IMG/VR virus record: IMGVR_UViG_3300017751_000155
Coordinates: 1 to 28,055 of that record
Source of the DNA: a virus
Strand: one strand, 5' to 3'
Length of the DNA stretch: 28,055 nucleotides
The position numbers were made by a program, and so were the translations under genes. Below are positions 750-13,713 of the stretch, in pieces; position 1 is the first letter of the stretch, and every line of letters begins with the position of its first letter. The notes beneath the pieces were generated by a model, which saw only the letters and a list, made by a program, of their open reading frames with translations, ran no database searches and was not told where the DNA came from.

Positions 750-1187
750 ATGCTAGATTTAGTACACATGGACAAACATGTCGAACACCTGAATGAAACA
801 TGGAAGTATCTATATGACGACGATCAATATGGATCGGACACGTGGCACATCATCAAAGAACCACCATACGAAGGTGACTGCGAGGACTATGCGCTGACAC
901 TACTGTGGTTGATGAGTGGAAAATCAATGGTCAACTTCTGGATCAATATCATCACAATGCAGGCACAGTTACGAAGGGTCAGTACGAAAAGAGGCGGGTT
1001 CCATGTCGTTCTCAAGGTAGGTGACCTATATGCAGACAACTGGACGCAAGAGTTCGTGACATGGGAAGAGATGGAAGAGAAGTGCGGTCACAAGAAGTAC
1101 CTGTGGATGTATGACCCGATTCTTGTTATTTTAAAAATGTTTACATCTACGTTAAAAAAATCTTCAAGGGGGGTTGACAGAACCTAA
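750..1187 (+). CDS. Transglutaminase-like cysteine peptidase (BTLCP-type)
   Basis: 145 residues. The nucleophile motif GDCEDYA places Cys at residue 44, GGFHVVLKVGDLYADNW gives His85 and Asp96, and spacing and order match the Cys-His-Asp triad of bacterial transglutaminase-like cysteine proteinases (BTLCP, papain fold). Members cleave or remodel peptides or isopeptide bonds; the phage substrate is unknown. There is no signal peptide, so it probably acts in the host cytoplasm. The start at 750 has a strong AAAAGGAG site 7 nt upstream. The gene diverges from the minus-strand pair to its left. Its last codons hold the -35 box of the next promoter. Confidence 0.75.
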   Translation: MLDLVHMDKHVEHLNETWKYLYDDDQYGSDTWHIIKEPPYEGDCEDYALTLLWLMSGKSMVNFWINIITMQAQLRRVSTKRGGFHVVLKVGDLYADNWTQEFVTWEEMEEKCGHKKYLWMYDPILVILKMFTSTLKKSSRGVDRT

Positions 1188-1778: not shown

Positions 1779-1915
1779 GACTTTGGTTATTGAGAGGTAT
1801 GTTGATTCTCTGGTTGAGTTTCTCCCAGAAAGCAGATGATGATCTGTTCGGAGTACTCACTAGTATCCGACGTTTCAATGAATGTAAAAGGATTGTACAC
1901 TTGACAGCACCCTAG
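1760..1915 (+). CDS. Possible 51-residue protein overlapping the preceding gene
   Basis: A 51-codon frame opens at an ATG inside the last codons of the upstream gene, with a GAGG site 7 nt upstream, and runs through the otherwise empty stretch before the next promoter. The product begins MVPRDIGLWLLRGMLILWLS, so the N-terminal half is hydrophobic (one possible membrane helix), and ends polar and basic. The stop codon lies just after the -35 box of the promoter at 1901. No homologue is known to me; length alone does not prove coding. Confidence 0.35.
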   Translation: MVPRDIGLWLLRGMLILWLSFSQKADDDLFGVLTSIRRFNECKRIVHLTAP

Positions 1916-1930
1916 AATGTGTCGTATAAT
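1901..1930 (+). promoter_or_regulatory. Sigma70 early promoter
   Basis: TTGACA at 1901-1906, 18-nt spacer and TATAAT at 1925-1930. Transcription would start near 1937, which excludes the ATG at 1917 as a start for the next gene. Confidence 0.8.
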
Positions 1931-1970
1931 ACACATTGTATATTTTATGAAACAACTTGAGAGTTATATT

Positions 1971-2306
1971 ATGATGGATTATGAACAAGGACTAGGATAT
2001 GCTTTGTCCTTTGCCAAAGAAACCCCTTTCGATGATGATGAGGGTGTGATCAACTCGATCTTAGAAAGTGTAAGTAAACATCGTCTACCAGAGAGTTCTT
2101 ACTCTCCTTGGGAGAAGCTCGATTCTCTACTTGATGAAGAGAAGATATTGCGTACTAGCAAAACCCCTTGGGAAAGTGCTTGTAAGTTATATTCCTATCG
2201 TTACAATGTACGCATCCCTGATTCCATCATCTATGGTGATAAGAAAGCGAAACGAGCGTTGAATAACTTTTTAAAAGAAAATGAAAAAGCGGCAGAGTTA
2301 TTATGA
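1971..2306 (+). CDS. Small acidic phage protein, unknown function
   Basis: 111 residues, MMDYEQGLGYALSFAKETPF onward. In-frame ATGs at 1917 and 1947 exist, but 1917 lies inside the promoter and 1947 has no ribosome-binding site; the ATG at 1971 follows TTGAGAG at the spacing used by neighbouring genes. The sequence carries two short Trp motifs, SPWEKL and TPWESA, around a charged helical middle, and a lysine-rich C-terminus. There is no signal or membrane segment and I do not recognise it. Its stop overlaps the next start (ATGA), which suggests translational coupling. Confidence 0.7.
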   Translation: MMDYEQGLGYALSFAKETPFDDDEGVINSILESVSKHRLPESSYSPWEKLDSLLDEEKILRTSKTPWESACKLYSYRYNVRIPDSIIYGDKKAKRALNNFLKENEKAAELL

Positions 2307-2599
2307 TACACGGTTCAATGCGACATACTACTACTGGTAGAAAGAAAAGTTACAACGCTTGGTCTACCAAGAAGAAACCCACCCCCAGATTCCAACCTAT
2401 GGAAGTAAAGAGTGAACCCTATCGAAGGGACACTCCAGTTTACAAATCTAACGATTCTGGTACTCACAGTACCCAAAAGAAAGAAAAAATGAACTACACC
2501 GGAACCCTAGTCAAGGGTATCGGAACCATGCACAAGTCCAACGCAATCCCCGTGATTGATGAACAACAGATGAAAGACCTTGCATCGATGAGGAGATGA
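2303..2599 (+). CDS. Small basic conserved phage protein
   Basis: 98 residues, rich in Lys, Arg, Thr and Ser. The N-terminus MRHTTTGRKKSYNAW (from the second Met) looks disordered and basic. The C-terminal block YTGTLVKGIGTMHKSNAIPV followed by IDEQQ is compact and, in my recollection, strongly conserved in T4-like marine phages; its function is unknown. The start overlaps the previous stop by 4 bp (ATGA), and its own stop overlaps the next ATG, so it sits in the middle of a coupled three-gene operon. The charge could suit nucleic-acid binding, but that is inference. Confidence 0.75.
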   Translation: MIHGSMRHTTTGRKKSYNAWSTKKKPTPRFQPMEVKSEPYRRDTPVYKSNDSGTHSTQKKEKMNYTGTLVKGIGTMHKSNAIPVIDEQQMKDLASMRR

Positions 2600-3033
2600 T
2601 GAGTAAAAGTTCTATTGAAGAAGACCAACGCGTAGCAAAGGTCGAAAGTCAAATCAGTCCGGAAGTCAAACAGGAGTTTGCCGGTAGTACGATGTCCAAA
2701 GCAGGAAGACTTGCTATGGAACTTAACGTTGAACGTAAACGTCTCAAACAAGAGATGGAGGAGCTTCAACTAGAAGTCGAAGACTTGAAACCGGCAACAC
2801 CAACAGGTACCATTGATAGTTATGTCAAATGGGGCGCAACTGTGCTTGGTGTGACAGGGATTTTTGCTATTAGTGCGGGGTTCGTTATTACTGGTCAAAT
2901 ATGTTATGCCTCTGCGGCCTCTGCGTGGGTTTATGTTGGTCATTGTTGGAACGACAAAGCAATCATGATAGGGAGTTCCATATCAGGTACAGCAGTACTA
3001 ATGAACCTAGTAGACACCCTAGTGACAATGTGA
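2596..3033 (+). CDS. Membrane protein with N-terminal coiled coil
   Basis: 145 residues. Residues about 38-66 form a charged coiled-coil-like helix (MELNVERKRLKQEMEELQLE and onward). It is followed by two or three hydrophobic segments, around residues 78-100 (GATVLGVTGIFAISAGFVIT), 101-115 and 124-144. This suggests an inner-membrane protein with a cytoplasmic helical domain. ATGs at 2596 and 2599 are both possible after AGGAG; 2599 has the better spacing. It is the last gene of the operon starting at 1971. Function unknown. Confidence 0.7.
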   Translation: MMSKSSIEEDQRVAKVESQISPEVKQEFAGSTMSKAGRLAMELNVERKRLKQEMEELQLEVEDLKPATPTGTIDSYVKWGATVLGVTGIFAISAGFVITGQICYASAASAWVYVGHCWNDKAIMIGSSISGTAVLMNLVDTLVTM

Positions 3034-3058
3034 CTAATTCACATAAAATAGTCATCTT

Positions 3059-3093
3059 TTTTTTCAAAATAAGTGTTGACATATGTTTCCAAA
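3059..3093 (+). repeat. Promoter direct repeat, copy 1 (35 bp)
   Basis: A T-run, CAAAATAAGTGTTGACA and the next 12 bases are repeated at 3982-4016 with a single mismatch (34 of 35 identical). The repeat covers the upstream element, the -35 box and half of the spacer. Confidence 0.85.
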
Positions 3094-3104
3094 AGAAGTA
3101 TAAT
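3076..3104 (+). promoter_or_regulatory. Sigma70 early promoter (cassette type)
   Basis: TTGACA 3076-3081, 17-nt spacer and TATAAT 3099-3104. The leader ATTGAATTGATAGAGAGAG leads into the ATG at 3136. Confidence 0.9.
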
Positions 3105-3135
3105 ACTTGTATTGAATTGATAGAGAGAGTTGATT

Positions 3136-3516
3136 ATGTACTACGTTATGAAGAACTACAAAAACATGAGAGCGGCAGGTCCGTTCGAGACTTACCAAGA
3201 CGCATATGATCACATGGAGTCGTATCCAAACCCATCTGCCTTGCATGTTTCTACTGCACGTGAGTTCACCAACTGTTCTGACTTCGCTGAAGTAGGTGAG
3301 ACCATCCAGTTTACAAATGGTAAAGGTGTTCAAGAAGGTCAGGTGATGTTTGTTCACCGTGACTTACCTACGAGTGATCCACTACGTAACGCCGACTACT
3401 ACAGCATTGCAACTGGTCCTAACCCAATGGACCGTCACTATCTGAACAGCAACATGATGAAGATGATGAAGGTTGTCAATCTTTCTGCTGGTCAACAACT
3501 TTCTATGGAGTTTTAA
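3136..3516 (+). CDS. Phage protein of unknown function
   Basis: 126 residues, MYYVMKNYKNMRAAGPFETY at the N-terminus. A TTG at 3130 lies in frame, but the ATG at 3136 sits 6 nt after the GAGAGAG stretch, exactly as in the related leader at 4984, so I use it. The N-terminal 30 residues (tyrosine-rich, FETYQDAYDHMES) suggest a small alpha/beta fold; the C-terminus is methionine-rich (NSNMMKMMKVVN). No catalytic motif, membrane segment or known family is apparent. The following gene starts 1 nt after its stop. Confidence 0.75.
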   Translation: MYYVMKNYKNMRAAGPFETYQDAYDHMESYPNPSALHVSTAREFTNCSDFAEVGETIQFTNGKGVQEGQVMFVHRDLPTSDPLRNADYYSIATGPNPMDRHYLNSNMMKMMKVVNLSAGQQLSMEF

Positions 3517-3517
3517 T

Positions 3518-3730
3518 ATGTCTGACTTATTCATGACCGTTTACAAGAACAAGACCGAGAACACCATGACTTACTACTACAGTCGCACGAAAGATGTGTT
3601 TGTAAGTAAGATGGAGTTCTTGGAACTCAATGGTGATGTCGACTGCATTGTTGTTGACGATACTCTGACTGCACAAGAAGTTGACGTTGTGTTCGGTGAA
3701 ATCTACGGAGAAAAATATGAGTACGCTTAG
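3518..3730 (+). CDS. Small acidic phage protein, unknown function
   Basis: 70 residues beginning MSDLFMTVYKNKTENTMTYY, with alternating beta-like segments (DCIVVDDTL) and an acidic C-terminal half. A longer in-frame start at 3473 lies inside the upstream gene and lacks a ribosome-binding site; the ATG at 3518 has GGAG at a suitable distance. It overlaps the next gene by about 14 bp, which suggests coupled translation. Function not recognised. Confidence 0.7.
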   Translation: MSDLFMTVYKNKTENTMTYYYSRTKDVFVSKMEFLELNGDVDCIVVDDTLTAQEVDVVFGEIYGEKYEYA

Positions 3731-3965
3731 TCTAGAAGAAGCGTGTCACTTCTTGTGGCGCGAAGAGATAACCGATTGGAATGGGGAGTCTATTCCCAAC
3801 CACGTTTATATCAGTAAGGGCACAGACCTCATGGGGTATGTCGCTCGAAGTACTGGACGGATACAGATGTTCAACGCCCCCAAAAAGTCGTGGTCAGTAT
3901 CCCGTCGTAAGTTCCGTAAGTTGAACAAGAAGGAAATAAAAAGTTATATTGATATGCAAAAATAG
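3717..3965 (+). CDS. Small basic phage protein, unknown function
   Basis: 82 residues, MSTLSLEEACHFLWREEITD at the N-terminus and a strongly basic C-terminus (SVSRRKFRKLNKKEIKSY). The ATG at 3717 follows GGAG by 6 nt; an upstream in-frame ATG at 3681 is inside the neighbour and lacks a site. The middle part (NHVYISKGTDLMGYVARS) looks like a small beta sheet. The basic tail might contact nucleic acid, but nothing proves it. It is the last gene of the operon starting at 3136. Confidence 0.7.
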   Translation: MSTLSLEEACHFLWREEITDWNGESIPNHVYISKGTDLMGYVARSTGRIQMFNAPKKSWSVSRRKFRKLNKKEIKSYIDMQK

Positions 3966-3981
3966 TCTAAAAAACTTCACC

Positions 3982-4016
3982 TTTTTTCAAAATAAGTGTT
4001 GACACATGTTTCCAAA
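3982..4016 (+). repeat. Promoter direct repeat, copy 2 (35 bp)
   Basis: Matches 3059-3093 at 34 of 35 positions; the single difference is T to C directly after the -35 box. Confidence 0.85.
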
Positions 4017-4028
4017 TCGTGTTATACT
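3999..4028 (+). promoter_or_regulatory. Sigma70 early promoter (cassette type)
   Basis: TTGACA 3999-4004, 18-nt spacer and TATACT 4023-4028. It is followed by a leader with GATGAGAGA before the ATG at 4061. Confidence 0.85.
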
Positions 4029-4060
4029 TACCCTGTAAGTTGAGATGAGAGAAAAACCAA

Positions 4061-4192
4061 ATGATCAAACTGAAACCCGCAACTCCCCAGCGAATCGTCG
4101 AAGTTCTTTTCGGTAATGCTGTACTCTGGATGTTTGCCTACGCCGCGATGTCACTCGCTTCTGGTCACCCCGTTCAATCTTATATAGGATGA
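4061..4192 (+). CDS. 43-residue single-helix membrane protein
   Basis: Short frame beginning MIKLKPATPQRIVEVLFGNA with one hydrophobic segment (VEVLFGNAVLWMFAYAAMSL, about residues 13-32). It is the first gene after the promoter at 3999 and has GAGAGA in the leader. Its stop overlaps the next ATG by 4 bp (ATGA). The two positive residues before the helix suggest an N-in orientation. No homologue is known to me; expression is supported by promoter and coupling rather than by length. Confidence 0.6.
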   Translation: MIKLKPATPQRIVEVLFGNAVLWMFAYAAMSLASGHPVQSYIG

Positions 4193-4305
4193 GTCGAATG
4201 AAATATAACAAATCTTCTGTCGATAAAGAGATAAAGAAAGACCCACGTATCAAGGGTAAAGAAGCAAAAGCAATTCATGCTTTACTGAAAGGGAGAACGA
4301 AATGA
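4189..4305 (+). CDS. 38-residue conserved basic microprotein
   Basis: The product is MSRMKYNKSSVDKEIKKDPR followed by IKGKEAKAIHALLKGRTK. The core, DKEIKKDPRIKGKEAKAIHA, matches a small protein I recall as recurrent in T4-like phages, which supports a real gene despite its size. It overlaps both neighbours by 4 bp (ATGA at each end), so translation is probably coupled along 4061-4778. It is helical and strongly basic (many Lys and Arg), consistent with nucleic-acid or protein binding. Function unknown. Confidence 0.65.
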   Translation: MSRMKYNKSSVDKEIKKDPRIKGKEAKAIHALLKGRTK

Positions 4306-4778
4306 ATAGCATAAATTCTGAACGGTTCGAAAAAATGTGGGAAGATTTGGTTCCCGCTATTGGTAATGCCTCCAGTCTCGCGGGTGAGATGATCCGCGCT
4401 GCGGGTCGTCTGCGTCACGACTTCTACAACAACGGGATGGGTAACAACACGTCCGGTGCACTGAATTTCTTACGTGAGAAGGGTGCGATCGACAAGGAGT
4501 TGCACGAGTACGTCCTACCCTACACGACGGGTCGACTCTATGAAGGTAGATATGAGAACGACTTGTTCCATGTTGCCATCGATCGCATCGTGGAAATAAC
4601 TAGTCGGTTCATCGCGTTCAACCCTCAGTTGATTACCATTGAGAATACCGAAGATATGTTTGACTACTCTGAAGACGATCTAGATGAGACATGTCAAGAG
4701 TGTTCAGGTTATGGGTACGATGACTATGGTGATGAAGACTGTTACATGTGTGACGGTACTGGATTCGTTAGTCAATAG
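4302..4778 (+). CDS. Protein with C-terminal DnaJ-type zinc finger
   Basis: 158 residues. The first 125 form a helical, globular-looking domain with no family I recognise. The C-terminus holds CQECSGYGY and CYMCDGTGF, with Cys131, Cys134, Cys147 and Cys150, the CxxCxGxG pattern of the DnaJ cysteine-rich region, enough to bind one zinc ion. There is no J-domain HPD motif, so it is not a complete co-chaperone. An acidic linker (FDYSEDDLDE) precedes the finger. The start overlaps the upstream stop (ATGA). A large hairpin with a T-run follows directly. Confidence 0.8.
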   Translation: MNSINSERFEKMWEDLVPAIGNASSLAGEMIRAAGRLRHDFYNNGMGNNTSGALNFLREKGAIDKELHEYVLPYTTGRLYEGRYENDLFHVAIDRIVEITSRFIAFNPQLITIENTEDMFDYSEDDLDETCQECSGYGYDDYGDEDCYMCDGTGFVSQ

Positions 4779-4784
4779 TTCGAG

Positions 4785-4846
4785 AGGGGAGCCGGTCTTG
4801 CGAAGATTCCGACTGACAGGTATGTGGACCACTCCCCTATTTTTTT
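4785..4846 (+). terminator. Rho-independent-type terminator with extended branched stem
   Basis: AGGGGAG at 4785-4791 pairs perfectly with CTCCCCT at 4832-4838. Inside, GGTC can pair with GACC just within the stem. Seven T follow at 4840-4846. The 40-nt interior is unusually long for a simple terminator. Confidence 0.65.
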
Positions 4847-4921
4847 CGTTCCATATACGAAAAAGTTATATGCTTATTCCAAAATATTCTAAAAATAATC
4901 CATTTATTTTCATTTGATGTG

Positions 4922-4950
4922 TTGACATCTGTTTCAAAAACAAGTATAAT
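4922..4950 (+). promoter_or_regulatory. Sigma70 early promoter (cassette type)
   Basis: TTGACA 4922-4927, 17-nt spacer and TATAAT 4945-4950. The leader ATTGAATTGATAAAGAGAGA is nearly identical to that of the promoter at 3076. Confidence 0.9.
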
Positions 4951-4983
4951 GTTTACATTGAATTGATAAAGAGAGAGTTGATT

Positions 4984-5238
4984 ATGACTAATGAGAACTG
5001 GACAGACAACACAGAAACCAACGAAGACGCTACCTTCCTAACACAGGAAGAGTACGATGTCGCCATGAAAGTTATCCCAGTAGACATCAAAGACGTTAAG
5101 AATTTCCGTGCCGGTTTCGAACTGGTTGAGTATGAAGCGGGTACCGATCCGTTAGATGGTTTTTGTTTGATGGGTTTCGACGAAGTCGGAATGTTTTGTA
5201 AGAACCCTCGTTATGCATTTATTGGAGACGCAGCATGA
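4984..5238 (+). CDS. Small acidic phage protein, unknown function
   Basis: 84 residues with an acidic N-terminus (MTNENWTDNTETNEDATFLT) and a compact remainder ending GFDEVGMFCKNPRYAFIGDAA-like. An in-frame TTG at 4963 is upstream, but the ATG at 4984 lies 6 nt after GAGAGAG as in the sister cassette. Net charge is strongly negative. Its stop overlaps the next start (ATGA), the first of two such couplings in this operon. No motif or family recognised. Confidence 0.7.
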   Translation: MTNENWTDNTETNEDATFLTQEEYDVAMKVIPVDIKDVKNFRAGFELVEYEAGTDPLDGFCLMGFDEVGMFCKNPRYAFIGDAA

Positions 5239-5447
5239 ATTTGATTGGTCAGAAAGTTGAAGGTAACTGGGGTGCCATGCATCCCATCTCATACGGTCTA
5301 ATCGACCGTCAAGTTGGTAGCGACAGTGTCGAAATAAAATGGGAAGACGGTTATCGCCAGGAAATCCAAATCGATGAGATTCGCGAGTGTGGATATCGTA
5401 GTTCTAACGGTTCACCCATTGGTATCTTTTTTGGAGAAGTTGCATGA
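5235..5447 (+). CDS. Small beta-rich phage protein, unknown function
   Basis: 70 residues, MNLIGQKVEGNWGAMHPISY first. The pattern of short alternating strands (SVEIKWEDGYRQEIQIDEIR) suggests an SH3-like or other small beta-barrel fold, an inference from composition only. GGAG precedes the start, and both ends overlap neighbours by 4 bp (ATGA). No catalytic residues or membrane segments are seen. Confidence 0.7.
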   Translation: MNLIGQKVEGNWGAMHPISYGLIDRQVGSDSVEIKWEDGYRQEIQIDEIRECGYRSSNGSPIGIFFGEVA

Positions 5448-5665
5448 TTGATTATATTTCTTGTACCGAAGACGGTTCTGAGATTCGTCTTTACGATGAA
5501 CACGAGATGCGCCCTGTATGCGAATCGAACAACGTTGCTGAGTTGGTCAATGCATATTTGAAGTATGGTATTGCTCCTCAAGTGATGGGTTCCTCAGATT
5601 GGTTCGAGGCACCGTTTGCATCTGCTCGCGAGTACACCATGAAGAAAGTCTACAAACTAATCTAG
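5444..5665 (+). CDS. Small phage protein, unknown function
   Basis: 73 residues beginning MIDYISCTEDGSEIRLYDEH. It has an alternating polar/hydrophobic N-terminal part and a helical middle (NNVAELVNAYLKYGI). Start codon overlaps the upstream stop, with GGAG nearby. It precedes the lysine-tailed protein by 9 bp in the same operon. No recognisable family. Confidence 0.7.
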   Translation: MIDYISCTEDGSEIRLYDEHEMRPVCESNNVAELVNAYLKYGIAPQVMGSSDWFEAPFASAREYTMKKVYKLI

Positions 5666-5674
5666 GGAGAGACA

Positions 5675-6013
5675 ATGCCTAAGATCGTCAAACTGAACTA
5701 CGACCGGAAGGTCCGTTACATATTCGACAAGGACACCGAAGAGTGTGAGAGACTCGCTAACGAGGTCATGGACCACTACGGTCAGTTCCTAGAGACTCCA
5801 CACGGTTGGTGGATGGATGACATCAAACGTTTTCAAAAGGTCTTGAGAGAGTGTGGTCTATCCGTCAGTGAGTTTCTTCGAGAGGAATTTGTGATGCCGC
5901 AGAAAAGTGTGCAAAAACCCAAATCGAAGGTGCGTAAAAGTGTCGTGACCAAAAAGAAGACTCCGGTCAAGAAAAAGACCCCTACCAAGAAAAAAACTAC
6001 AAAAAACGCTTGA
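5675..6013 (+). CDS. Small protein with lysine-rich histone-H1-like tail
   Basis: 112 residues. Residues 1-77 form a folded-looking domain (KLNYDRKVRYIFDKDTEECE, then HGWWMDDIKRFQKVL). From about residue 78 the chain becomes a Lys/Thr/Pro/Val tail with repeated KKKTP units (TKKKTPVKKKTPTKKKTTKN at the end). Such tails, as in eukaryotic H1 and bacterial H1-like proteins, bind DNA non-specifically. A role in host nucleoid or phage DNA handling is inference. The GGGAGA site gives a good start. The tail-coding DNA runs directly into the next promoter. Confidence 0.75.
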   Translation: MPKIVKLNYDRKVRYIFDKDTEECERLANEVMDHYGQFLETPHGWWMDDIKRFQKVLRECGLSVSEFLREEFVMPQKSVQKPKSKVRKSVVTKKKTPVKKKTPTKKKTTKNA

Positions 6014-6037
6014 CCGTCATCGCCAGTGTGGTATAAT
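6010..6037 (+). promoter_or_regulatory. Sigma70 early promoter (cassette type)
   Basis: TTGACC 6010-6015, 16-nt spacer and TATAAT 6032-6037, then AGTTACCTAATTGATTGAGA before the ATG at 6067. Confidence 0.85.
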
Positions 6038-6066
6038 AGTTACCTAATTGATTGAGAGAGTGCGTT

Positions 6067-6483
6067 ATGAATCCAGTAATTGTCCAAGGTCGCATCAAGA
6101 ACAAGAAGAAAGTGGAATCTTACATCCATGCTCTCGCAAAGGAGTTGGGTATCCACCGACTCTACAGTAAAGTTCTTATGGTCAAATTCTCTACCAAACT
6201 TGATGGAGAAGCGCAAGGTCTGTGTTGGGGTGACCACAAGACTCATGCTGAGATATTTGTTGCAAAAACTAGTTGTGGTGACGAAATGTCTATGGAGTCT
6301 ATGATGCAGACCCTAGCGCATGAAATGGTTCACGCTAAACAGTATCTCCGTCGTGAACTGTGTGGTTATAGTATGGCGTGGAAAGGTCGCAAACCTCGTA
6401 ACTACAAATATGAGAATGCTCCTTGGGAGAAAGAAGCATACCGTCTCGAAGAAGAATTGTTCAATAAATGTTGGGAGAAATAG
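6067..6483 (+). CDS. Zinc metallopeptidase-like protein (HExxH), copy 1
   Basis: 138 residues. LAHEMVHAKQYL places the zinc/catalytic HExxH at residues 85-89, and PWEKEAY around residue 119-125 offers a downstream Glu as possible third ligand. The size and helix-HExxH-helix arrangement resemble SprT-like or gluzincin-like small peptidases. The N-terminus is basic. An in-frame TTG at 6052 exists, but the ATG at 6067 has the cassette GAGAGAG site. No signal peptide, so it is probably cytoplasmic in the host. Substrate unknown. A related protein lies at 8293. Confidence 0.75.
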   Translation: MNPVIVQGRIKNKKKVESYIHALAKELGIHRLYSKVLMVKFSTKLDGEAQGLCWGDHKTHAEIFVAKTSCGDEMSMESMMQTLAHEMVHAKQYLRRELCGYSMAWKGRKPRNYKYENAPWEKEAYRLEEELFNKCWEK

Positions 6484-6484
6484 T

Positions 6485-6694
6485 ATGAAAGGTTTAGGTG
6501 AATTACTACTAGTGGTTGCGGCAGTTTTGGTTTTTGTAGTCTATGCAGATGCGATGAGTAATGTTCTGGATATGCCAGATGTGCATGTTAGTAACTCCAG
6601 TCAGCAGTGTGTCAACGTTATCAACTACGCACCAGAGGATGATTACTCGTGTGAGAATCTTCCGGAAATCTACAACCAAGTATGGGTGAAATAA
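6485..6694 (+). CDS. Short membrane-anchored or secreted conserved phage protein
   Basis: 69 residues. The N-terminus MKGLGELLLVVAAVLVFVVY is a single hydrophobic helix, either a membrane anchor or an uncleaved signal. It is followed by a short ectodomain with two cysteines (QQCVNVINYAP and YSCENLPEIYNQVWV), which could form a disulfide in the periplasm. I recall the C-terminal pattern Cys-Val ... Cys-Glu-x-Leu-Pro ... Tyr ... Val-Trp-Val from other marine phage proteins. It starts just after the metallopeptidase stop, and its own stop overlaps the next start by one base. Confidence 0.7.
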   Translation: MKGLGELLLVVAAVLVFVVYADAMSNVLDMPDVHVSNSSQQCVNVINYAPEDDYSCENLPEIYNQVWVK

Positions 6695-6876
6695 TGGAAC
6701 TAGTATACGATGTACTCGGTCTTGGATTATTTTCATTTCTTAGTTTGTTGTTATATGTCAACCTACACATGGAAGAAGAGAAGGCACTGGGAGAACACAT
6801 CCCGTTGATGTGGGAAGAGGGTGGTTGGTTGAGAACTTTTTGGAATACCCTTATAGCAAATCGGTCTAAAAAATAA
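6694..6876 (+). CDS. 60-residue single-helix membrane protein
   Basis: Starts MELVYDVLGLGLFSFLSLLL, with one hydrophobic helix over residues about 5-23, then a charged, tryptophan-containing tail (GGWLRTFWNTLIANRSKK). An in-frame ATG 12 nt earlier lies inside the upstream gene; the TAATG overlap favours 6694. Function unknown. Together with its upstream neighbour it forms a membrane-protein pair behind the metallopeptidase gene. Confidence 0.6.
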   Translation: MELVYDVLGLGLFSFLSLLLYVNLHMEEEKALGEHIPLMWEEGGWLRTFWNTLIANRSKK

Positions 6877-6887
6877 TAAAAAAAGGG

Positions 6888-6915
6888 TTGACAATTCCGT
6901 CAGATTTGGTATAAT
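6888..6915 (+). promoter_or_regulatory. Sigma70 early promoter (cassette type)
   Basis: TTGACA 6888-6893, 16-nt spacer and TATAAT 6910-6915. The leader GGTTACATAAATTGATGAGA continues with GAGAGAG before the ATG at 6952. Confidence 0.9.
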
Positions 6916-6951
6916 GGTTACATAAATTGATGAGAGAGAGAGAAAATTGTT

Positions 6952-7335
6952 ATGGCATATGTAAGTCAAGAAGATAAGAAAAAGTTAACCCCTGCGATCA
7001 AAGCAGTCCTCAAGAAGTACAACATGAAAGGTACTCTTGCCATTCGTCATCACAGCAGTTTAGTGTGTAACATCAAGAGTGGTGCTCTCGATATCATCGG
7101 AGCGTTACCTGTCGGTGAGTACGGTCCTCGCGACTACATTCAGGTCAATCCGTACTGGATTGCTGAAAACTACGACGACGAAAAGGTTGTTGCGTTCTTG
7201 ACTGAATTGAAGGCTGCGATGGAAGGACCCGACTTCTTCTGTGAAGATGACAGCATGACTGACTACTTCCACCGAAGTCACTACATCGACATCAACGTCG
7301 GACAGTTCAACAAACCTTACCAGTTGGTGGCGTGA
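6952..7335 (+). CDS. Conserved phage/bacterial protein of unknown function
   Basis: 127 residues, MAYVSQEDKKKLTPAIKAVL then KKYNMKGTLAIRHHSSLVCN and a middle IQVNPYWIAENY. I recall similar N-termini (YVSQ..KK.L.PAIK.VLKKY.MKG..A.RHHS) in proteins from phages and bacteria, without known function. It is soluble, with an HH pair near residues 33-34 and several His in the C-terminal third. The start follows a long GAGAGAGAGA stretch in the cassette leader. It is followed directly by a 54-codon gene. Confidence 0.8.
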   Translation: MAYVSQEDKKKLTPAIKAVLKKYNMKGTLAIRHHSSLVCNIKSGALDIIGALPVGEYGPRDYIQVNPYWIAENYDDEKVVAFLTELKAAMEGPDFFCEDDSMTDYFHRSHYIDINVGQFNKPYQLVA

Positions 7336-7336
7336 T

Positions 7337-7501
7337 ATGAATTTTCGAATGTGGTGTAACGAGATGTGGTTTACCCATTGTGATGAGGTCGAGACCTACA
7401 CAGGTAAACGTCCGGACTACAAAGCAAAGGATTACTTTGCGAAGTATAAGTGGTTTCTGAAACGTGAATATTTACACGAAAAAGTTTCAAAAAAGAGTTG
7501 A
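7337..7501 (+). CDS. 54-residue conserved aromatic/basic phage protein
   Basis: Sequence begins MNFRMWCNEMWFTHCDEVET and continues YTGKRPDYKAKDYFAKYKWF. The aromatic-rich pattern (W..NEMW..H.DE...YTGK.PDY..K.YF.KYKW.LKREY) is one I recall from small proteins of T4-like marine phages, which supports a real gene. It starts 1 nt after the previous stop, and its TGA stop overlaps the TTGACA of the next promoter. It is basic at the C-terminus. Function unknown. Confidence 0.65.
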   Translation: MNFRMWCNEMWFTHCDEVETYTGKRPDYKAKDYFAKYKWFLKREYLHEKVSKKS

Positions 7502-7525
7502 CATTGTTTGCCATTATGGTATAAT
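7498..7525 (+). promoter_or_regulatory. Sigma70 early promoter (cassette type)
   Basis: TTGACA 7498-7503, 16-nt spacer and TATAAT 7520-7525. The leader GGTTACCTAAATTGATGAGA is almost identical to that at 6911-6940. Confidence 0.9.
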
Positions 7526-7555
7526 GGTTACCTAAATTGATGAGAGAGATATATT

Positions 7556-7780
7556 ATGTTCTATGCAAAACCTAAGTTGAATAACCATCACGACGCGCAG
7601 ACCTTCGAGAACGTTGCATCTGCCGTTGCTTTCCTAAACGAGTACAATGAGATGGGTTCTGATAAAGACCCTGAGAATAAAGTTGCTAAGTTGCAAGCCG
7701 AAGATTGGTGGTTACTTGGTAAGTTGGTTGGTCCAGAAGGAACCGAATTCAAGAACAACAAGGTAGTGGAGGCAAAGTAA
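7556..7780 (+). CDS. Small phage protein, unknown function
   Basis: 74 residues starting MFYAKPKLNNHHDAQTFENV, mostly helical, with a Trp-Trp pair (AEDWWLLGKLVG) near the C-terminus. The start is fixed by the cassette leader with GAGAGA. Its stop shares one base with the next start (TAATG). No motif or family recognised. Confidence 0.7.
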   Translation: MFYAKPKLNNHHDAQTFENVASAVAFLNEYNEMGSDKDPENKVAKLQAEDWWLLGKLVGPEGTEFKNNKVVEAK

Positions 7781-7965
7781 TGACTGCATGGTATGCACGT
7801 GGTGAACTTGGTGAGGCGATCCGTGATTTGATGGATGCCTTTCTTGATGACTTCATAGACACTAACACCATAATCAAGACTCTGTCCGAGATGGGTTTGA
7901 GTCACGAAGAGATGATGGAAGTGTGTAACGAAGAACTTGAATTTCAACAAGCAACTTTTCACTAA
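7780..7965 (+). CDS. 61-residue acidic helical protein, unknown function
   Basis: MTAWYARGELGEAIRDLMDA onward, strongly acidic and predicted helical, with a second helix (SHEEMMEVCNEELEFQQ). TAATG coupling to the preceding gene gives the start. The composition suggests a small helical bundle or adaptor, but no family is recognised. The AAGGAG for the following gene begins just before its stop. Confidence 0.65.
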   Translation: MTAWYARGELGEAIRDLMDAFLDDFIDTNTIIKTLSEMGLSHEEMMEVCNEELEFQQATFH

Positions 7966-7975
7966 GGAGTTAGTT

Positions 7976-8293
7976 ATGGGTCTTATTGCAAACATTTATC
8001 GTACCGACCAATCCGACTGTTCGGGTGGTGGTATGAGTTCACGGTTCACTTCGGTGACCATCGTAAACGTCGAAGGTCCTTTCGAACCAACTGTAGGTCG
8101 CCCTGCGGTTGAGTTGGTCAAGGGTTATGTTGACGGAACTTGTTTTGTTCGTCCCACGTACCTAGGTGCAGAACGTCCTATGATGGGTGGTACATTCGTC
8201 TCCACGTCTGATAGTCGATTCCACCGAAAGGTCCGTGAGATCACCGGAGGGGATTTCTCTGGTGCGGTTCCTTTCCACGATCGGGTAGAATAA
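7976..8293 (+). CDS. Conserved phage protein of unknown function
   Basis: 105 residues, MGLIANIYRTDQSDCSGGGM then SSRFTSVTIVNVEGPFEPTV. I recall proteins in marine T4-like phages that share this N-terminal block (MGLIA.IYR....DC..GG.S..F.SVT..NVEGPFEP). The rest is beta-rich with glycines (PMMGGTFVSTSDSRF). A strong AAGGAG lies 6 nt upstream of the ATG at 7976; an in-frame ATG at 7937 sits inside the previous gene with no site. Function unknown. Confidence 0.75.
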   Translation: MGLIANIYRTDQSDCSGGGMSSRFTSVTIVNVEGPFEPTVGRPAVELVKGYVDGTCFVRPTYLGAERPMMGGTFVSTSDSRFHRKVREITGGDFSGAVPFHDRVE

Positions 8294-8784
8294 TGAAGTA
8301 CGCTGAGAATGTTGATGTTGCGGAATCCCCTAGTTACGAGATGTCCACCTATGTTCATAAGGTTGCACAGTTTCTAGGAATCTCTACCATGCCTGGCCAC
8401 GTCGAGCTAGAATTCGTCAATGACCTAGGTACGTTCGCTGGACTAGTTGACGGCGATGAGGATCAAGTTGATATCTCTATCGCTGAGTACTTCGAAGGTA
8501 AACGGGTCGATGAGAAACAAATGAAAATCAACATTGCCCATGAGATGATTCATGCAGTGCAGATACTAAGCGGTCGATTGATTCATACTGGACTAACTCT
8601 GAATGAAGGTGTGATGTCCTATAAGTGGATATTCGATGGTCAAGAGTATGAGAATATGAAGTACTGTGATCAGCCATGGGAAAACGAGGCATATGACAAT
8701 GAAGAAGAAATCTACCAAGCGATCGAATCCGGTCGCGAAGTATGCGCGGAAATTCAATCGCGCTTCTACCCACGTCGACCGTAA
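8293..8784 (+). CDS. Zinc metallopeptidase-like protein (HExxH), copy 2
   Basis: 163 residues. INIAHEMIHAVQIL places HExxH at residues 83-87, and CDQPWENEAYDNEEE (around 125-139) supplies a downstream Glu. The layout (HEM[VI]HA.Q.L..., then YEN....PWE.EAY..EEE) closely matches the protein at 6067, so the two are probably paralogues. The N-terminal 70 residues differ and are acidic rather than basic. No signal peptide. The start overlaps the previous stop by one base. The last 86 nt also encode the start of another protein in a different frame. Confidence 0.75.
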   Translation: MKYAENVDVAESPSYEMSTYVHKVAQFLGISTMPGHVELEFVNDLGTFAGLVDGDEDQVDISIAEYFEGKRVDEKQMKINIAHEMIHAVQILSGRLIHTGLTLNEGVMSYKWIFDGQEYENMKYCDQPWENEAYDNEEEIYQAIESGREVCAEIQSRFYPRRP

Positions 8785-8848
8785 GAAGGAGTCGAAGAAA
8801 CGAGGTCAATTGACCAAAGAAGAATTGTATCCAAATAATGGATTCTAA
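8699..8848 (+). CDS. 49-residue basic microprotein in an overlapping frame
   Basis: Begins MKKKSTKRSNPVAKYARKFN and continues RASTHVDRKKESKKRGQLTK. The pattern NP.AK...KFN...TH.DRKK..KK is one I recall from small basic proteins of T4-like cyanophages, so this is likely a true gene even though its first 86 nt lie inside the metallopeptidase gene in another frame. GAGG at 8686-8689 serves the ATG at 8699 (spacing 9); an ATG at 8693 is also possible. Strong positive charge suggests nucleic-acid binding, function unknown. Confidence 0.65.
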   Translation: MKKKSTKRSNPVAKYARKFNRASTHVDRKKESKKRGQLTKEELYPNNGF

Positions 8849-8852
8849 CCAC

Positions 8853-8881
8853 TTGACAAACCACTACATATGAGGTATAAT
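8853..8881 (+). promoter_or_regulatory. Sigma70 promoter in front of the gp33-gp32 region
   Basis: TTGACA 8853-8858, 17-nt spacer and TATAAT 8876-8881. It lacks the repeated GAGAGAG leader. Predicted transcription start near 8888 rules out start codons at 8870 and 8882 for the next gene. Confidence 0.85.
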
Positions 8882-8899: not shown

Positions 8900-9106
8900 A
8901 TGCGTTATGCAATGATTCGTGCAGCTGCACTGAAGATTCAGAAACGTAGTAAAATTAGTAAGTCAAATGACCGTCTTACTAAAGAAGTAGTAGGTCTTGA
9001 TCGTCAAGACTATAAGTCAGATGTACGATGGGGAGATGAGGAACGATTCGTCAATACTCACTTCTCCGATGTATATGAAGCAAACCAAAAAGAGGAATGG
9101 AACTAA
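8900..9106 (+). CDS. Small phage protein, unknown function
   Basis: 68 residues from MRYAMIRAAALKIQKRSKIS. In-frame ATGs at 8870 and 8882 overlap the promoter's spacer and -10 and cannot be in its transcript, so the ATG at 8900 (or 8912) is the likely start, with only an AAAAGA stretch as a weak site and a leader of about 12 nt. The N-terminus is basic and helical; the C-terminus (DEERFVNTHFSDVYEANQKE-like) is acidic. The stop overlaps the next start (TAATG). Function unknown. Confidence 0.65.
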   Translation: MRYAMIRAAALKIQKRSKISKSNDRLTKEVVGLDRQDYKSDVRWGDEERFVNTHFSDVYEANQKEEWN

Positions 9107-9399
9107 TGGCCGATATGCCTACAAACCTTATTGACTTAGGTCAATACCCCCGTAACGATGTTGATCTCATTGCCCGTGAGTATCTACGTTGTGCATACCT
9201 AGACACTCTTGACACATACGTCAAAGAGTTCGTGAGTCTTGATGAGGAAGATGATTCTCGCAAGAATGTTCTCGCTACACTTGAAGCATTCGAACACACC
9301 ATTGCAATATTAGATGGTAACGAAGAGTTTCTTGAAGCAGTACACGCCGACTCCGGTGAAGAGGAGTCTGATGAGGACGAAGAGTTTGAACGATTCTAA
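9106..9399 (+). CDS. Acidic phage protein with Glu/Asp tail, unknown function
   Basis: 97 residues, MADMPTNLIDLGQYPRNDVD at the N-terminus, a helical middle and a highly acidic C-terminus (HADSGEEESDEDEEFERF). The ATG at 9097 is only 1 nt from the AGAGG site; 9106 is better spaced and gives a TAATG overlap. Acidic tails near replication genes can mimic DNA or bind basic partners; that role is inference. It is followed by a strong AAGGAGG for the next gene. Confidence 0.7.
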   Translation: MADMPTNLIDLGQYPRNDVDLIAREYLRCAYLDTLDTYVKEFVSLDEEDDSRKNVLATLEAFEHTIAILDGNEEFLEAVHADSGEEESDEDEEFERF

Positions 9400-9409
9400 G
9401 GAGGAATCT

Positions 9410-9670
9410 ATGTTTAGTTATGAAAATATAGTTGATCAACTTCGATCAAACGTACTTCAGGTCACATTTAGTAAGGTCAACGGTGAGGAACGCATTATGC
9501 CATGTACTCTCCAGACAGACTATATGCCTGAACTGTCGGAGTCTAAGGTCAGTCAAGTGGATGACTTTTCTGTAAATAAGTCTGTGATTCGAGCATTCGC
9601 AATCGACAAGCAATCATGGCGGTCTTTCCGCGTTGATAATGTCCGTGCGATTGAGGTAATCAATGGATGA
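9410..9670 (+). CDS. Small beta-rich conserved phage protein (WRSFRVD type)
   Basis: 86 residues. The segments MPCTLQTDYMPEL, VIRAFAIDKQSWRSFRVDNV and the short beta strands are typical of a small SH3/WYL-like family that I recall next to gp33 or gp32 in T4-like marine phages. WYL-like domains often bind nucleic acid or ligands, but the role of this one is not known. The start at 9410 follows AAGGAGG by 6 nt; an upstream in-frame ATG at 9314 lies inside the neighbour. Its 3' end overlaps the gp33 gene by 8 bp. Confidence 0.75.
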   Translation: MFSYENIVDQLRSNVLQVTFSKVNGEERIMPCTLQTDYMPELSESKVSQVDDFSVNKSVIRAFAIDKQSWRSFRVDNVRAIEVING

Positions 9671-9899
9671 GACTACTGAAGAGAAATTCCTAACCAAGAA
9701 ATCATTCTCTGCGATGATCGAGAGTTTCGTATTTCAAAACAAGATGACGTACATGGATTCTATTGTACATCTCTGTGAGAAGAACGGATTAGAACTGGAA
9801 GACATCAAGAAGTATCTGTCTCCCACTATCGTAGAACATCTAGAGAGTGAAGCACGTCAGTTGAATTTTCTGCCAAAGCAGAATACACTAGACGTATAA
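9663..9899 (+). CDS. 33: gp33-like late-transcription co-activator
   Basis: 78 residues. FLTKKSFSAMIESFVFQNKM, TYMDSIVHLCEKNGLE and the C-terminal LNFLPKQNTLDV match the gp33 family of T4-like phages (T4 gp33 is 112 residues). T4 gp33 binds the beta-flap of host RNA polymerase and, with gp55 and the gp45 clamp, activates late promoters. The C-terminal hydrophobic/acidic end fits the sliding-clamp-binding motif of that family. It lies directly upstream of gp32; in T4 the two genes are also close. Its stop overlaps the late promoter box at 9895. Confidence 0.85.
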   Translation: MDETTEEKFLTKKSFSAMIESFVFQNKMTYMDSIVHLCEKNGLELEDIKKYLSPTIVEHLESEARQLNFLPKQNTLDV

Positions 9900-9902
9900 A
9901 TA
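9895..9902 (+). promoter_or_regulatory. T4-type late promoter upstream of gp32
   Basis: TATAAATA on the plus strand, overlapping the stop codon of the gp33 gene. The transcript would start near 9908 and include the gp32 leader. Confidence 0.75.
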
Positions 9903-9906
9903 GTAA

Positions 9907-9960
9907 TGCCCTTATGGGTAATCTCATACATTGTTTATATTTAAGTTTATATAAGGTAAA
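9907..9960 (+). promoter_or_regulatory. Possible gp32 autoregulatory leader
   Basis: A short hairpin (TGCCC, loop TTAT, GGGTA, 9907-9920) is followed by a U/A-rich tract and a second weak hairpin (TTATAT 9935-9940 with ATATAA 9949-9954) that touches the AAGG ribosome-binding site. T4 gp32 represses its own mRNA by binding a structured, A/U-rich leader; these elements would suit the same control. The pairing is weak, so this is inference. Confidence 0.4.
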
Positions 9961-9965
9961 ATATT

Positions 9966-10916
9966 ATGTCTTTTGCAAATCTAAAGTCCAAGTCTATGGA
10001 CATCTCAAAACTTGTCGCTGAAGCAAACGCTGCATCCGGTCAAGTATCTAACACCAACAAATACCAAGACGATCGCAAGTGGAAACCAACTGTTGATGAA
10101 CAGGGTAATGGTTATGCCGTGATTCGTTTCCTTCCCGCTACCGAAGGTCAAGACCTACCGTGGGTCCGTTATTGGGACCACGCATTCAAGGGTCCAACCG
10201 GACAATGGTACATCGAACGTTCATTGACTACCCTAGGTCAGAACGACCCACTAGGTGAGTTGAACTCACGTCTGTGGAACTCAGGTATCGAAGAGGATAA
10301 GGAAACTGCACGTAAGCAGAAGCGTCGTCTACACTACGTTACTAACATCCAAGTTATTAACGACCCTTCGAACCCCGCCAACAATGGCAAGATGTTCATC
10401 TATGAGTTCGGTAAGAAAATCTTTGACAAGATTATGGACCAGATGCAACCAGAGTTTCCTGGCGAGACTCCAGTCAATCCGTTTGACTTCTGGGGAGGTG
10501 CGGACTTCGAACTGAAGATTCGTAACGTTGCGGGATACCGTAACTACGATAAGTCGGACTTCAAGTCACCTTCTCCGTTCTTGAATGCTGATGAGACTCA
10601 ACTCGAAGCAGTTTACAACGGTCTATATGACCTGAACGAGTTCGTAGTTCCTAACTATCCTAACGCACACGATGCTAAATGGTTCAAGACCTATGATGAG
10701 TTGAAGAACAAGTTGGAGACTGTATTGGGTCTTGCGACTGGTGCTGGTGCAACCATCAAGAACGAGGCACTTGCGCAGACTGCTGAAGCGGCACCTATGC
10801 GTGAAGCGTCGGAACCGACTGTAGTATCTGCTCCTGCTGTTGAAGCTGCACCTGTGGTCGCAGCGGAAGCGGACGATACTCTCTCGTACTTCGCGCAGAT
10901 GGCTGCCGAAGACTAA
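9966..10916 (+). CDS. 32: Single-stranded DNA-binding protein gp32
   Basis: 316 residues (T4: 301). The N-terminus SFANLKSKSMDISKL resembles the basic cooperativity (LAST-type) region; the core carries the family's aromatic and basic segments (VIRFLPATEG, HAFKGPTGQWYIERSLTTLG, KQKRRLHYVTNIQVI, WGGADFELKIRNVAGYRNYD). After an Ala/Pro/Val linker it ends in the acidic DDTLSYFAQMAAED, the usual docking tail for partner proteins. It coats ssDNA in replication, recombination and repair. There is no cysteine anywhere, so the Zn site of T4 gp32 is absent, as I recall for marine relatives. It is followed by a strong terminator. Confidence 0.95.
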   Translation: MSFANLKSKSMDISKLVAEANAASGQVSNTNKYQDDRKWKPTVDEQGNGYAVIRFLPATEGQDLPWVRYWDHAFKGPTGQWYIERSLTTLGQNDPLGELNSRLWNSGIEEDKETARKQKRRLHYVTNIQVINDPSNPANNGKMFIYEFGKKIFDKIMDQMQPEFPGETPVNPFDFWGGADFELKIRNVAGYRNYDKSDFKSPSPFLNADETQLEAVYNGLYDLNEFVVPNYPNAHDAKWFKTYDELKNKLETVLGLATGAGATIKNEALAQTAEAAPMREASEPTVVSAPAVEAAPVVAAEADDTLSYFAQMAAED

Positions 10917-10938
10917 ATTCCATTTCCTTTGGTTTTTG

Positions 10939-10962
10939 GGGGACCTTCGGGTCCCCTTTTTT
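10939..10962 (+). terminator. Strong intrinsic terminator after gp32
   Basis: GGGGACC (10939-10945), loop TTCG, GGTCCCC (10950-10956), then six T (10957-10962). A UUCG-type tetraloop on a 7-bp GC-rich stem. The last T residues overlap the stop codon of the converging minus-strand gene. Confidence 0.95.
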
Positions 10963-12802
10963 ATACCCTAGTACCCGCTATGAATGGGTCTGAATTGTCA
11001 AACGAATTCAGTGAAGAACTTACTAGACTAGTGTTATTACTGACATTGCTGGTGTTAGATGTTGGTGCGAACAATGCCGAACCGGAATTCCCTGAAAGTA
11101 GTTCATTGAGTGTTTGAGTACTCTGTGCAACTTGACCACCCTGTGTAGGTAATGCTTTAGCTATACCTTTAGCGATTGCATCACCGCCTGGCGTTCCCGT
11201 AACACTCTGAGCAGTCGATACCGCACCCCCCGATTTGCTTGCCTCTTGGAGAGACTTTGCAACACCTATGAGTTCACTCTCTTCACCCAACAACCATTGT
11301 GCGACTTGTGATGCGATATAGTCACCGCTCATCGCACCAAGTACACCACCTAAAAGACCACCGACACCTGTTCCCAAAAGAGGTACGATTGAACCAACTG
11401 TTGCTCCCGCGATAGTACCTAGAAGACCCCCACCTATACCACCAAGTGCGCCAGCGATCTGTGATATTTTTTGTTCTTTAGATAATTCATCGTTCGCCAT
11501 TATCATACCAATCGAACCGGCTGAAATCATTGTACCTAGGACCGGAATCTTCAGTGCAGCTTTCAGGTTCTTGAATTGTGCGAGTTGTTTCAATAATCCT
11601 TTGGACTGTGTAGATGTGGGTGCCTTGACACTTTTTAGTGCTTCATCCATCTTATCAGCGGACATGAACTTTCCGTTCTGTCTCATTCCACCCTTGTCTA
11701 CGGTGATGCCCTTATCTTTCAACTTGTCTAATTTTTTCTGACTCAGGTTAGATGCGGTCTTGTTATTCAGCTGAATTCTTTCTTGCTTGCTCATCGCCGG
11801 TGGTTTTACGGCTGATGCCGGAGTTTCTGGTTTGGTGAGTGCATTCTTCGTTATACTCTGCAAGGTCTTCCCTTTGACCGCTTGTGATACCATTATTGCC
11901 CCAACCTGAGAACTGCCCTGCGCATTATCTTGTAATGCGTCCATGTCACCTTCAACAAGAGCCTGTGCCGATTTCAGTGCTTGGGTAGTTCTTTCTTCTA
12001 GGGTTGACATCGCACCATCCATGATTTTAGGTATGTCTACACCTAGGGTGATTAAGTATTCGTTGAACTCTCCAACTCTGTCAGAGAACTCTTCACCGAT
12101 GTTTCGTAATATCTCCATGTTCTCTTCAGTTGCCATCGCACCAGCGACAGCACCGATGAGTGCATACTTTTTACCGAACAACGAACCCAACGCACCGAAC
12201 TTGACTATGTTGGCCCCCGCTGCTGCGAGTTCAGGGTTATCGGTAAGTGACATGATACCTTTACCGATACTGTCGGATAGTATGGCACCCATACCGAACA
12301 CACCCGCTTTAGCAAGTATTCCTCTACCGAACAACTTGCCCATCACGTCGTCTTTGAATTTACCGGCTTTCTTACCTATGCCACCAGCAACACCAGAAGG
12401 GTTTTTAGTTCCCGCCTTGACTACAGGAGACTTTGACTTTTCTCTTTTCTTATCGTCACTTTCTTTCTTCTCGTGTTTACGAGTTTTTTCACGGTCCTTC
12501 TTTGACTCTTCTCTTTCTTTCTTTGACTCATCACGTTCAGAACGTTCTTCTGCACGGTCTTTGGCTCGTTGGGCACGTTCTTCTGCACGGTCTTTGGATT
12601 GTTCATTTCTTGAAGATTTATCATCGGCAAACCAACCCAAGAATGATATGTGCATTTGACTGATTGCTTGTTGTGTATCAAACGCACCTTTCCTCACAGC
12701 TCTGGACGTTACATCGGTCTGCGTCTCAATTTTTGTACCTAACGCATCATTTAGATGACGTAGGTCTCTATAGATTACTGGTGTTTTGTCTTCACGTGCC
12801 AT
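10961..12802 (-). CDS. 29: Putative tape measure protein (gp29-position)
   Basis: 613 residues (T4 gp29: 590). After an N-terminal helical domain, residues 62-125 are a highly charged Lys/Arg/Glu coil with a tandem AKDRAEER unit (at 70-77 and 80-87). Gly/Ala-rich hydrophobic segments lie at about 160-225 and 418-495 (for example GALGGIGGGLLGTIAGATVG), and the C-terminus is Ser/Asn-rich. Hydrophobic Gly-rich stretches plus long helices are usual in tape measures. It is the last gene of the minus operon, 3 nt after the gp26 frameshift product, the normal position of a tape measure. At about 1.5 A per residue it would fit a tail of roughly 92 nm. Identity rests on layout and composition, not on motif identity. 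Confidence 0.65.
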   Translation of the reverse strand: MAREDKTPVIYRDLRHLNDALGTKIETQTDVTSRAVRKGAFDTQQAISQMHISFLGWFADDKSSRNEQSKDRAEERAQRAKDRAEERSERDESKKEREESKKDREKTRKHEKKESDDKKREKSKSPVVKAGTKNPSGVAGGIGKKAGKFKDDVMGKLFGRGILAKAGVFGMGAILSDSIGKGIMSLTDNPELAAAGANIVKFGALGSLFGKKYALIGAVAGAMATEENMEILRNIGEEFSDRVGEFNEYLITLGVDIPKIMDGAMSTLEERTTQALKSAQALVEGDMDALQDNAQGSSQVGAIMVSQAVKGKTLQSITKNALTKPETPASAVKPPAMSKQERIQLNNKTASNLSQKKLDKLKDKGITVDKGGMRQNGKFMSADKMDEALKSVKAPTSTQSKGLLKQLAQFKNLKAALKIPVLGTMISAGSIGMIMANDELSKEQKISQIAGALGGIGGGLLGTIAGATVGSIVPLLGTGVGGLLGGVLGAMSGDYIASQVAQWLLGEESELIGVAKSLQEASKSGGAVSTAQSVTGTPGGDAIAKGIAKALPTQGGQVAQSTQTLNELLSGNSGSALFAPTSNTSNVSNNTSLVSSSLNSFDNSDPFIAGTRV

Positions 12803-12805
12803 GGG

Positions 12806-12997: not shown

Positions 12998-13012
12998 TCA
13001 GTTATACCTTCT
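12988..13012 (-). promoter_or_regulatory. Programmed -1 ribosomal frameshift signal
   Basis: On the minus strand: AGAAGG (13012-13007), 9 nt, then eight T (12997-12990) forming an in-frame T TTT TTT slippery heptamer, followed directly by the gp26 stop TAG. A Shine-Dalgarno-like sequence about 10 nt before the slip site stimulates -1 shifting in E. coli dnaX. No clear downstream hairpin is visible. Confidence 0.7.
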
Positions 13013-13698: not shown

Positions 13699-13713
13699 TA
13701 TGTAATCCTATAA

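Follow-up and report, generated by a model that had tools for sequence, protein, structure and literature searches.

A signal-less C93/BTLCP cysteine peptidase encoded by a T4-like phage, with a possible role in the cell envelope at lysis

We identified, in a 28-kb window (the whole stretch of viral DNA analyzed here, 28,055 nucleotides), a gene for a phage-encoded transglutaminase-like (C93/BTLCP) cysteine peptidase, an assignment that is supported at the family level by profile and predicted fold. As relatives of this gene in several phage types adjoin lysis genes, the protein may help to open the cell envelope. The explanation that we favor, tentatively and with somewhat less than even confidence, is that the product is an envelope protease of the LapG type that depends on calcium and is set free at lysis. 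Taken together, the repeated occurrence next to endolysin and spanin genes, the absence of an export signal, and the conserved cationic tail point to a specific role in lysis that can be tested, and calcium gating, if true, would show how a phage safely stores an active protease until the membrane opens. Phage BTLCPs are also common in viral contigs, with each of four overlapping alignment-based scans returning at least 349 to 463 confirmed relatives.

Results

The window is a fragment of a T4-like phage, in which a single-strand binding protein, a DNA end protector, and a baseplate wedge are recognized; its positions 9000 to 28055 gave no near nucleotide match when compared with named phages. 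The open reading frame (ORF) at positions 750 to 1187 (+ strand) comprises 145 codons and a stop, and the motif AAGGAG, which resembles a ribosome-binding site, lies 7 nucleotides 5' of its ATG (737 to 742, +). Relatives are encoded at 29 viral loci with 37 to 94% identity and the frame kept, and dN/dS is low (0.09 against L001, 0.07 against L002, and 0.16 against L003; synonymous sites are saturated in the pair with L004). ORF 750-1187 is therefore a real gene under purifying selection. On its 5' side lies a divergent small gene of 83 amino acids (448 to 699, −), and on its 3' side lies a pyrimidine-dimer-glycosylase-like gene (1230 to 1778, +), so named from matches to PF03013 and phrog_624 and outside the function proposed here.

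The first-pass annotation had proposed a phage-encoded transglutaminase-like cysteine peptidase, and both a family profile and a structural model bear this out. The protein passes the Pfam model PF06035 (Peptidase_C93/BTLCP) narrowly, with 27.8 bits against a cut-off of 27 (E 2.6e-6), and matches phrog_22465, for which no function is given (E 3e-7), and, over 40 residues only, the peptidase family phrog_12671 (E 9e-4). Compared alone with the PDB, the protein returned no match, and a profile of 17 phage sequences found LapG (E 1.2e-4 and 9e-4). The GDCEDY motif, including the cysteine, is aligned there, as is the histidine for 4U65, and D96 falls beyond the alignment. Two further profile matches (E 0.28 and 0.96) were weak and unrelated and were set aside. 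An AlphaFold model based on 16 sequences (pLDDT 88.5, pTM 0.85) has LapG as its best structural match, with a Z score of 10.6 and an rmsd of 3.5 over 127 residues, followed by TglA (Z 7.0), PeiW (6.7), PeiP (6.2), and the vasohibins (about 6). A fold lacking the papain-like arrangement of the three catalytic residues had been named as the observation that would overturn the assignment; at the level of fold, the model agrees with the assignment through this match to LapG.

Conservation was analyzed over 326 loci with a BTLCP ORF, drawn from five viral-contig scans and named phage records. These include the window itself and contigs fetched repeatedly by overlapping scans, and grouping them into 63 clusters at 80% identity removes most of this redundancy. 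The catalytic set Cys44-His85-Asp96 is present exactly as first described, with codons at 876 to 884 for D43-C44-E45, 1002 to 1004 for H85, and 1035 to 1037 for D96 (all +). The cysteine and the histidine are kept in all 63 clusters and the aspartate in 62, L235 being the apparent exception. The positions on either side of the nucleophile are equally constrained: D43 is kept in 63/63 clusters, and position 45 is glutamate in 58 and aspartate in 5. In DvhG of Desulfovibrio vulgaris, the calcium site that the enzyme requires is described as including the two residues that flank C317, namely D316 and E318 (PMC13090378), so that, judging from the alignment, acidic residues corresponding to calcium-site positions appear to flank the cysteine in every phage cluster. 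Residue 84 (codon 999 to 1001), directly before the catalytic histidine, is phenylalanine in the window alone and glycine in 50 of the 63 clusters.

The ends of the protein set the phage relatives apart from some bacterial ones. The product had been described as cytoplasmic-looking, and hydropathy agrees, as the window protein has no hydrophobic N-terminus and a hydrophobic N-terminal stretch comparable to that of bacterial relatives is absent, by the same measure, from all 63 phage clusters. Among 25 loci on bacterial contigs, several of whose reading frames are ambiguous, nine full-length relatives (L340, L345, L347 to L349, and L351 to L354) begin with a hydrophobic stretch and lack a hydrophobic tail, and others (e.g., L331 to L334, L337, and L338) are of the phage type. 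The BTLCP at positions 5977 to 6465 of L341 (Albimonas sp. CAU 1670) lacks a hydrophobic N-terminus and has a C-terminal stretch that resembles a full membrane span. In the window protein, codons 123 to 140 (1116 to 1169, +) specify a predicted hydrophobic and cationic C-terminal helix. With thresholds that were chosen after the tails had been inspected, the tail combines a hydrophobic character with a charge of at least +3 in 56/63 clusters, against 13 of 330 control ORFs (other + strand ORFs of 100 to 200 amino acids in the same loci). As these residues are modeled confidently as a helix and the alignment with LapG runs through it, the helix may pack on the core of the protein instead of binding a membrane.

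The genes that surround BTLCP homologues across phages bear on a function in lysis. A Phage_lysozyme gene starts directly after the BTLCP gene in L010, L012, and L013, and the next gene encodes a lysozyme in L243, a PG-binding/M15 lysin in L196 and L206, and, in L208, a PG-binding lysin whose CHAP-like part scores below the cut-off for CHAP. In L015, L226, and L162, an Rz-like spanin lies three genes on and is followed by an o-spanin-like lipoprotein, which was recognized by eye and had no match in the family search. Similarly, the annotated gene order in Thiohalocapsa phage LS06-2018-MD03, whose record was found with homologue L017, is peptidase, hemolysin, Rz-like spanin, hypothetical protein, and peptidoglycan hydrolase.

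This association was quantified with three externally defined marker families (PF00959, PF01471, and phrog_739) over 50 records. A marker is present in 28 records and lies within 1.5 kb of the BTLCP gene in 15 of these, compared with 3.7 by random placement and a maximum of 11 in 5000 random runs; within 500 bp, the count is 7 records, against 1.2 by random placement. In the other 13 of the 28 records the marker is more than 1.5 kb away, and at the thresholds used 22 of the 50 have none of the three. Either strand was accepted, two PF01471 places below cut-off (G043 and W02) were kept, and phrog_739 matches weaker than 1e-10 were dropped, which removed four of the 16 records of that family. 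Related records were counted separately (phage DSS3_VP1 accounts for two of the 50), and many of the contigs are short. In control genomes, phrog_739 matched 9/14, PF01471 8/14, and PF00959 3/14. The test thus shows an enrichment of lysis genes near the BTLCP gene and gives no precise probability, since some records are related, and hence not independent, and since two of the families are common in control genomes.

A second count, seeded from loci seen near the BTLCP gene and hence partly circular, finds a lysis-type gene somewhere in the locus in 35 of 63 clusters, leaving 28 with none; this gene is adjacent in 21 clusters, where 5.1 were expected, and lies at most three genes away in 28, where 13.6 were expected. 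Of the adjacent cases, 14 are due to a single kind of neighbor, a protein of about 105 amino acids with two membrane spans and, in most cases, an EF-hand, which is also the commonest neighbor within three genes (19/63 representatives), followed by a terminase-like protein (15/63). When this EF-hand protein is excluded, 16 clusters have a lysis-type gene in the locus, adjacent in 7. We considered it as a holin and instead call it a membrane neighbor, as its similarity to Holin_X is weak (E 0.012, below cut-off) and its contexts are mixed: it follows a putative lysozyme in CRP-207 and precedes an annotated holin in CRP-810, and lies between baseplate-hub and tape-measure-like genes in HTVC008M and Melnitz-3. 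A DUF1353 neighbor was likewise considered as a lysis gene and rejected for want of evidence; its model gave no match among those listed, and the gene is outside all counts.

Other placements are away from recognized lysis genes. The BTLCP homologues of Vibrio phages K479 and D254 are found amid tRNAs or close to RNA-polymerase genes, those of the DSS3 phages adjoin a metallophosphoesterase and an RNA ligase, and that of L241 lies between tail-fibre-like genes. We also observed genes for class 3 lipases (PF01764), in L264 (4273 to 5004) immediately upstream of the BTLCP gene and in L149 (2333 to 3109) three genes before it.

The time of expression is informative because the first-pass annotation had read an early location beside sigma70 promoters as favoring a host target. 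This argument finds no support, as the promoters are on the wrong side of the gene and a late motif stands upstream of it in relatives. The six perfect TTGACA-N16-18-TATAAT promoters on the + strand lie at 1901 to 8881, in a block of small genes downstream of ORF 750-1187, and one further perfect site in the window is on the − strand at 21253. A site matching at 11 of 12 positions (TTGACA-17-TACAAT; 1174 to 1202, +) overlies the 3' end of the ORF and is directed at the next gene. In the 120 nucleotides upstream of the start, the best sigma70-like site matches at 8 of 12 positions in the window and at 9 in several relatives. An exact TATAAATA, the T4-type late motif, is found 37 to 38 nucleotides before the start in four close relatives (L005, L007, L008, and L009, which represent two distinct proteins). 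At the same distance the window has ACTAAATA (712 to 719, +), which matches 6 of 8 positions and is a weak late-promoter candidate; L001 to L004 have 6/8 versions at the window's position, and L043 has a 7/8 version at 31 nucleotides. In the codirectional loci L010, L012, and L013, the late motif was not found upstream of the BTLCP gene. Together, these upstream motifs favor late over early expression of the BTLCP gene, as far as promoter sequences can indicate. The divergent gene has a TATAAATA late motif of its own (705 to 712, −), invariant in 8 aligned sequences; this sits 5 nucleotides before the ATG (699, −) and no ribosome-binding site was seen, so that a late transcript of this gene would be leaderless.

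In the clade of the window itself, the link to lysis is less direct. In a quick tree with seven long branches, the window and the lysozyme-adjacent L012 fall within a branch of five clusters (SH-aLRT 94), which is nested in a set of ten (SH-aLRT 97). Five of these ten carry a lysis label, two from lysis genes proper (the lysozyme of L012 and the spanins of L226) and three from the EF-hand protein alone. Over the whole tree, the label changes 13 times with the labels of the locus-seeded count and 14 times with labels added by hand for L210 (PF01471 at 71 bp) and for L157 and L235 (spanins four genes away). In L012, the codirectional gene directly upstream of the BTLCP gene is homologous to the divergent gene of the window (55% identity), and the lysozyme of L012 is 71% identical to that of a relative of the window (L356, on the same contig as L001). 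These homologies imply that the three genes either shared a locus in the past or came to share one in the sister clade. The lysozyme lies 10.5 to 12.5 kb from the BTLCP gene, on the same strand, in the five window-clade records that were searched. Neither Phage_lysozyme nor the phrog_739 spanin was found within the 28-kb window, a fragment that begins 749 bases before the BTLCP gene. Given this separation from the lysozyme, a lysis role for the window's T4-like clade is an extension from its sister clade. Between the lysozyme and the BTLCP gene, L356 (9803 to 18957) has ORFs that by eye are radical-SAM-, carbamoyltransferase-, and glycosyltransferase-like, and in L010, L012, and L013 similar ORFs, again judged by eye, are located after the lysozyme.

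Discussion

When these results are placed into physiological context, a mechanism can be proposed for an envelope protease released at lysis. The BTLCP protein would be made late and would wait in the cytoplasm, where it would be inactive, since enzymes of the LapG type depend on calcium at the D-C-E site. Once the holin opens the membrane, the protein would meet both calcium and the envelope, reaching the latter much as signal-less endolysins reach the wall, and could dock there through its tail. It would then cleave a protein of the envelope, for example, one that resides in the outer membrane or is linked to the wall, or else an adhesin anchored there, and this cleavage would aid lysis or virion release beside the endolysin and spanins. 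Calcium gating after the holin breach fits both the lysis placement and the tail. Counting against a function in lysis, some homologues are placed apart from lysis genes, the BTLCP gene and the lysozyme are separated in the window's clade, and the EF-hand neighbor occurs in mixed contexts. It is a more doubtful proposition that phage BTLCPs form a class of lysis protease of their own, gated by calcium and acting in a step separate from those of holin, endolysin, and spanin: a signal-less cytoplasmic enzyme, silent until the holin breach, that would cut envelope proteins tethering the outer membrane or adhesins.

Other functions could be accommodated by the same family assignment. One is the cleavage or modification of a host protein or an anti-phage protein by a cytoplasmic protease made early, which we regard as unlikely. 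The lack of a hydrophobic N-terminus would suit such a function, ORF 750-1187 just precedes the block with six perfect sigma70 promoters, and the homologues of K479, D254, and the DSS3 phages are away from recognized lysis genes. Against this, the inference of an early host-takeover gene from promoter position was rejected since those promoters are downstream of the ORF, the best upstream site reaches 8/12, and four relatives have the exact late motif. Homologues also lie in or beside lysis genes, which are enriched near the BTLCP gene, and a LapG-type need for calcium, as described for DvhG (PMC13090378), would silence the enzyme in the cytosol.

A LapG-like function in the shedding or remodeling of host surface proteins, which could release adhesins, exclude superinfecting phages, or benefit the host cell, follows from what has been suggested for river-virus BTLCPs. 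The nearest solved fold is that of LapG, the cellular enzymes LapG, DvhG, and HvyA are described as acting on surface structures (PMC13090378, PMC4241560), and the viral gene is regarded as an auxiliary metabolic gene in PMC11283719. We nevertheless hold this to be quite unlikely for the phage protein, which without a signal peptide would need another way out of the cytoplasm and whose genes have lysis genes enriched nearby.

It might also be speculated that the protein is itself a peptidoglycan endopeptidase, and thus the endolysin. Transglutaminase-like folds include the pseudomurein endoisopeptidases PeiW and PeiP, both among the structural matches of the model, and neither PF00959 nor PF01471 was found beside the spanins on the short contigs L015, L226, and L162. 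This is improbable, as separate endolysins of different types adjoin the BTLCP gene in other phages and so are not replaced by it, and the fold is nearer to LapG than to PeiW.

Finally, a function in virion-protein maturation or as a virion component is very improbable, even though the BTLCP gene lies just before terminase-like and portal-like genes in one large group (clusters #1 and #4), between two genes of tail-fibre type in L241, as far as can be judged, and behind a gene annotated as a tail fibre in SBP1, because placement varies between phage types, for which reason a head-maturation protease is not favored, and because ORF 750-1187 is outside the recognized structural genes of the window, which begin beyond 10.9 kb.

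The phage protein can be compared with several cellular BTLCPs, among which the LapG/DvhG type is characterized by calcium-dependent cleavage at [T/A/P]AAG. LapG, a periplasmic BTLCP protease (4U65, 4FGO), is the best fold match and has the D-C-E motif in common with the phage protein, which differs in lacking a signal peptide and is 16 to 17% identical in the structural alignment. DvhG has the same triad, and its D316 and E318 correspond to D43 and E45; it is described as a periplasmic enzyme that cleaves adhesins (PMC13090378), whereas the phage protein is a signal-less domain of 145 amino acids. HvyA of Caulobacter, which blocks capsulation, is likewise of the BTLCP family with a Cys-His-Asp set and is reported to affect the envelope and phage sensitivity; unlike the phage protein, it is a host gene product of 272 amino acids with a Sec signal sequence (PMC4241560).

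Phage BTLCPs are already in print; searches of openly licensed papers, a set that lacks most subscription papers and preprints, brought up none that ties them to lysis. The closest precedents, compared here by description, are the phage-borne BTLCPs of single-virus genomes from river water, where no auxiliary gene is reported to have been identified more often than BTLCP, which seems to have been transferred between virus clusters (PMC11283719). It is treated there as an auxiliary metabolic gene with suggested surface or biofilm roles, and the passages considered here deal with host adaptation, with no word on lysis, signal loss, or the tail (PMC11283719).

Some features elsewhere in the window may be of separate interest. 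Collagen-like GTQGPxG repeats, probably of a fibre protein, are present at its end (27148 to 28053). The ORFs at 6052 to 6483 and 8293 to 8784 match the same PHROGs (phrog_16532 and phrog_10499), and the former shows a weak similarity to SprT-like metallopeptidases (E 9e-5, below cut-off).
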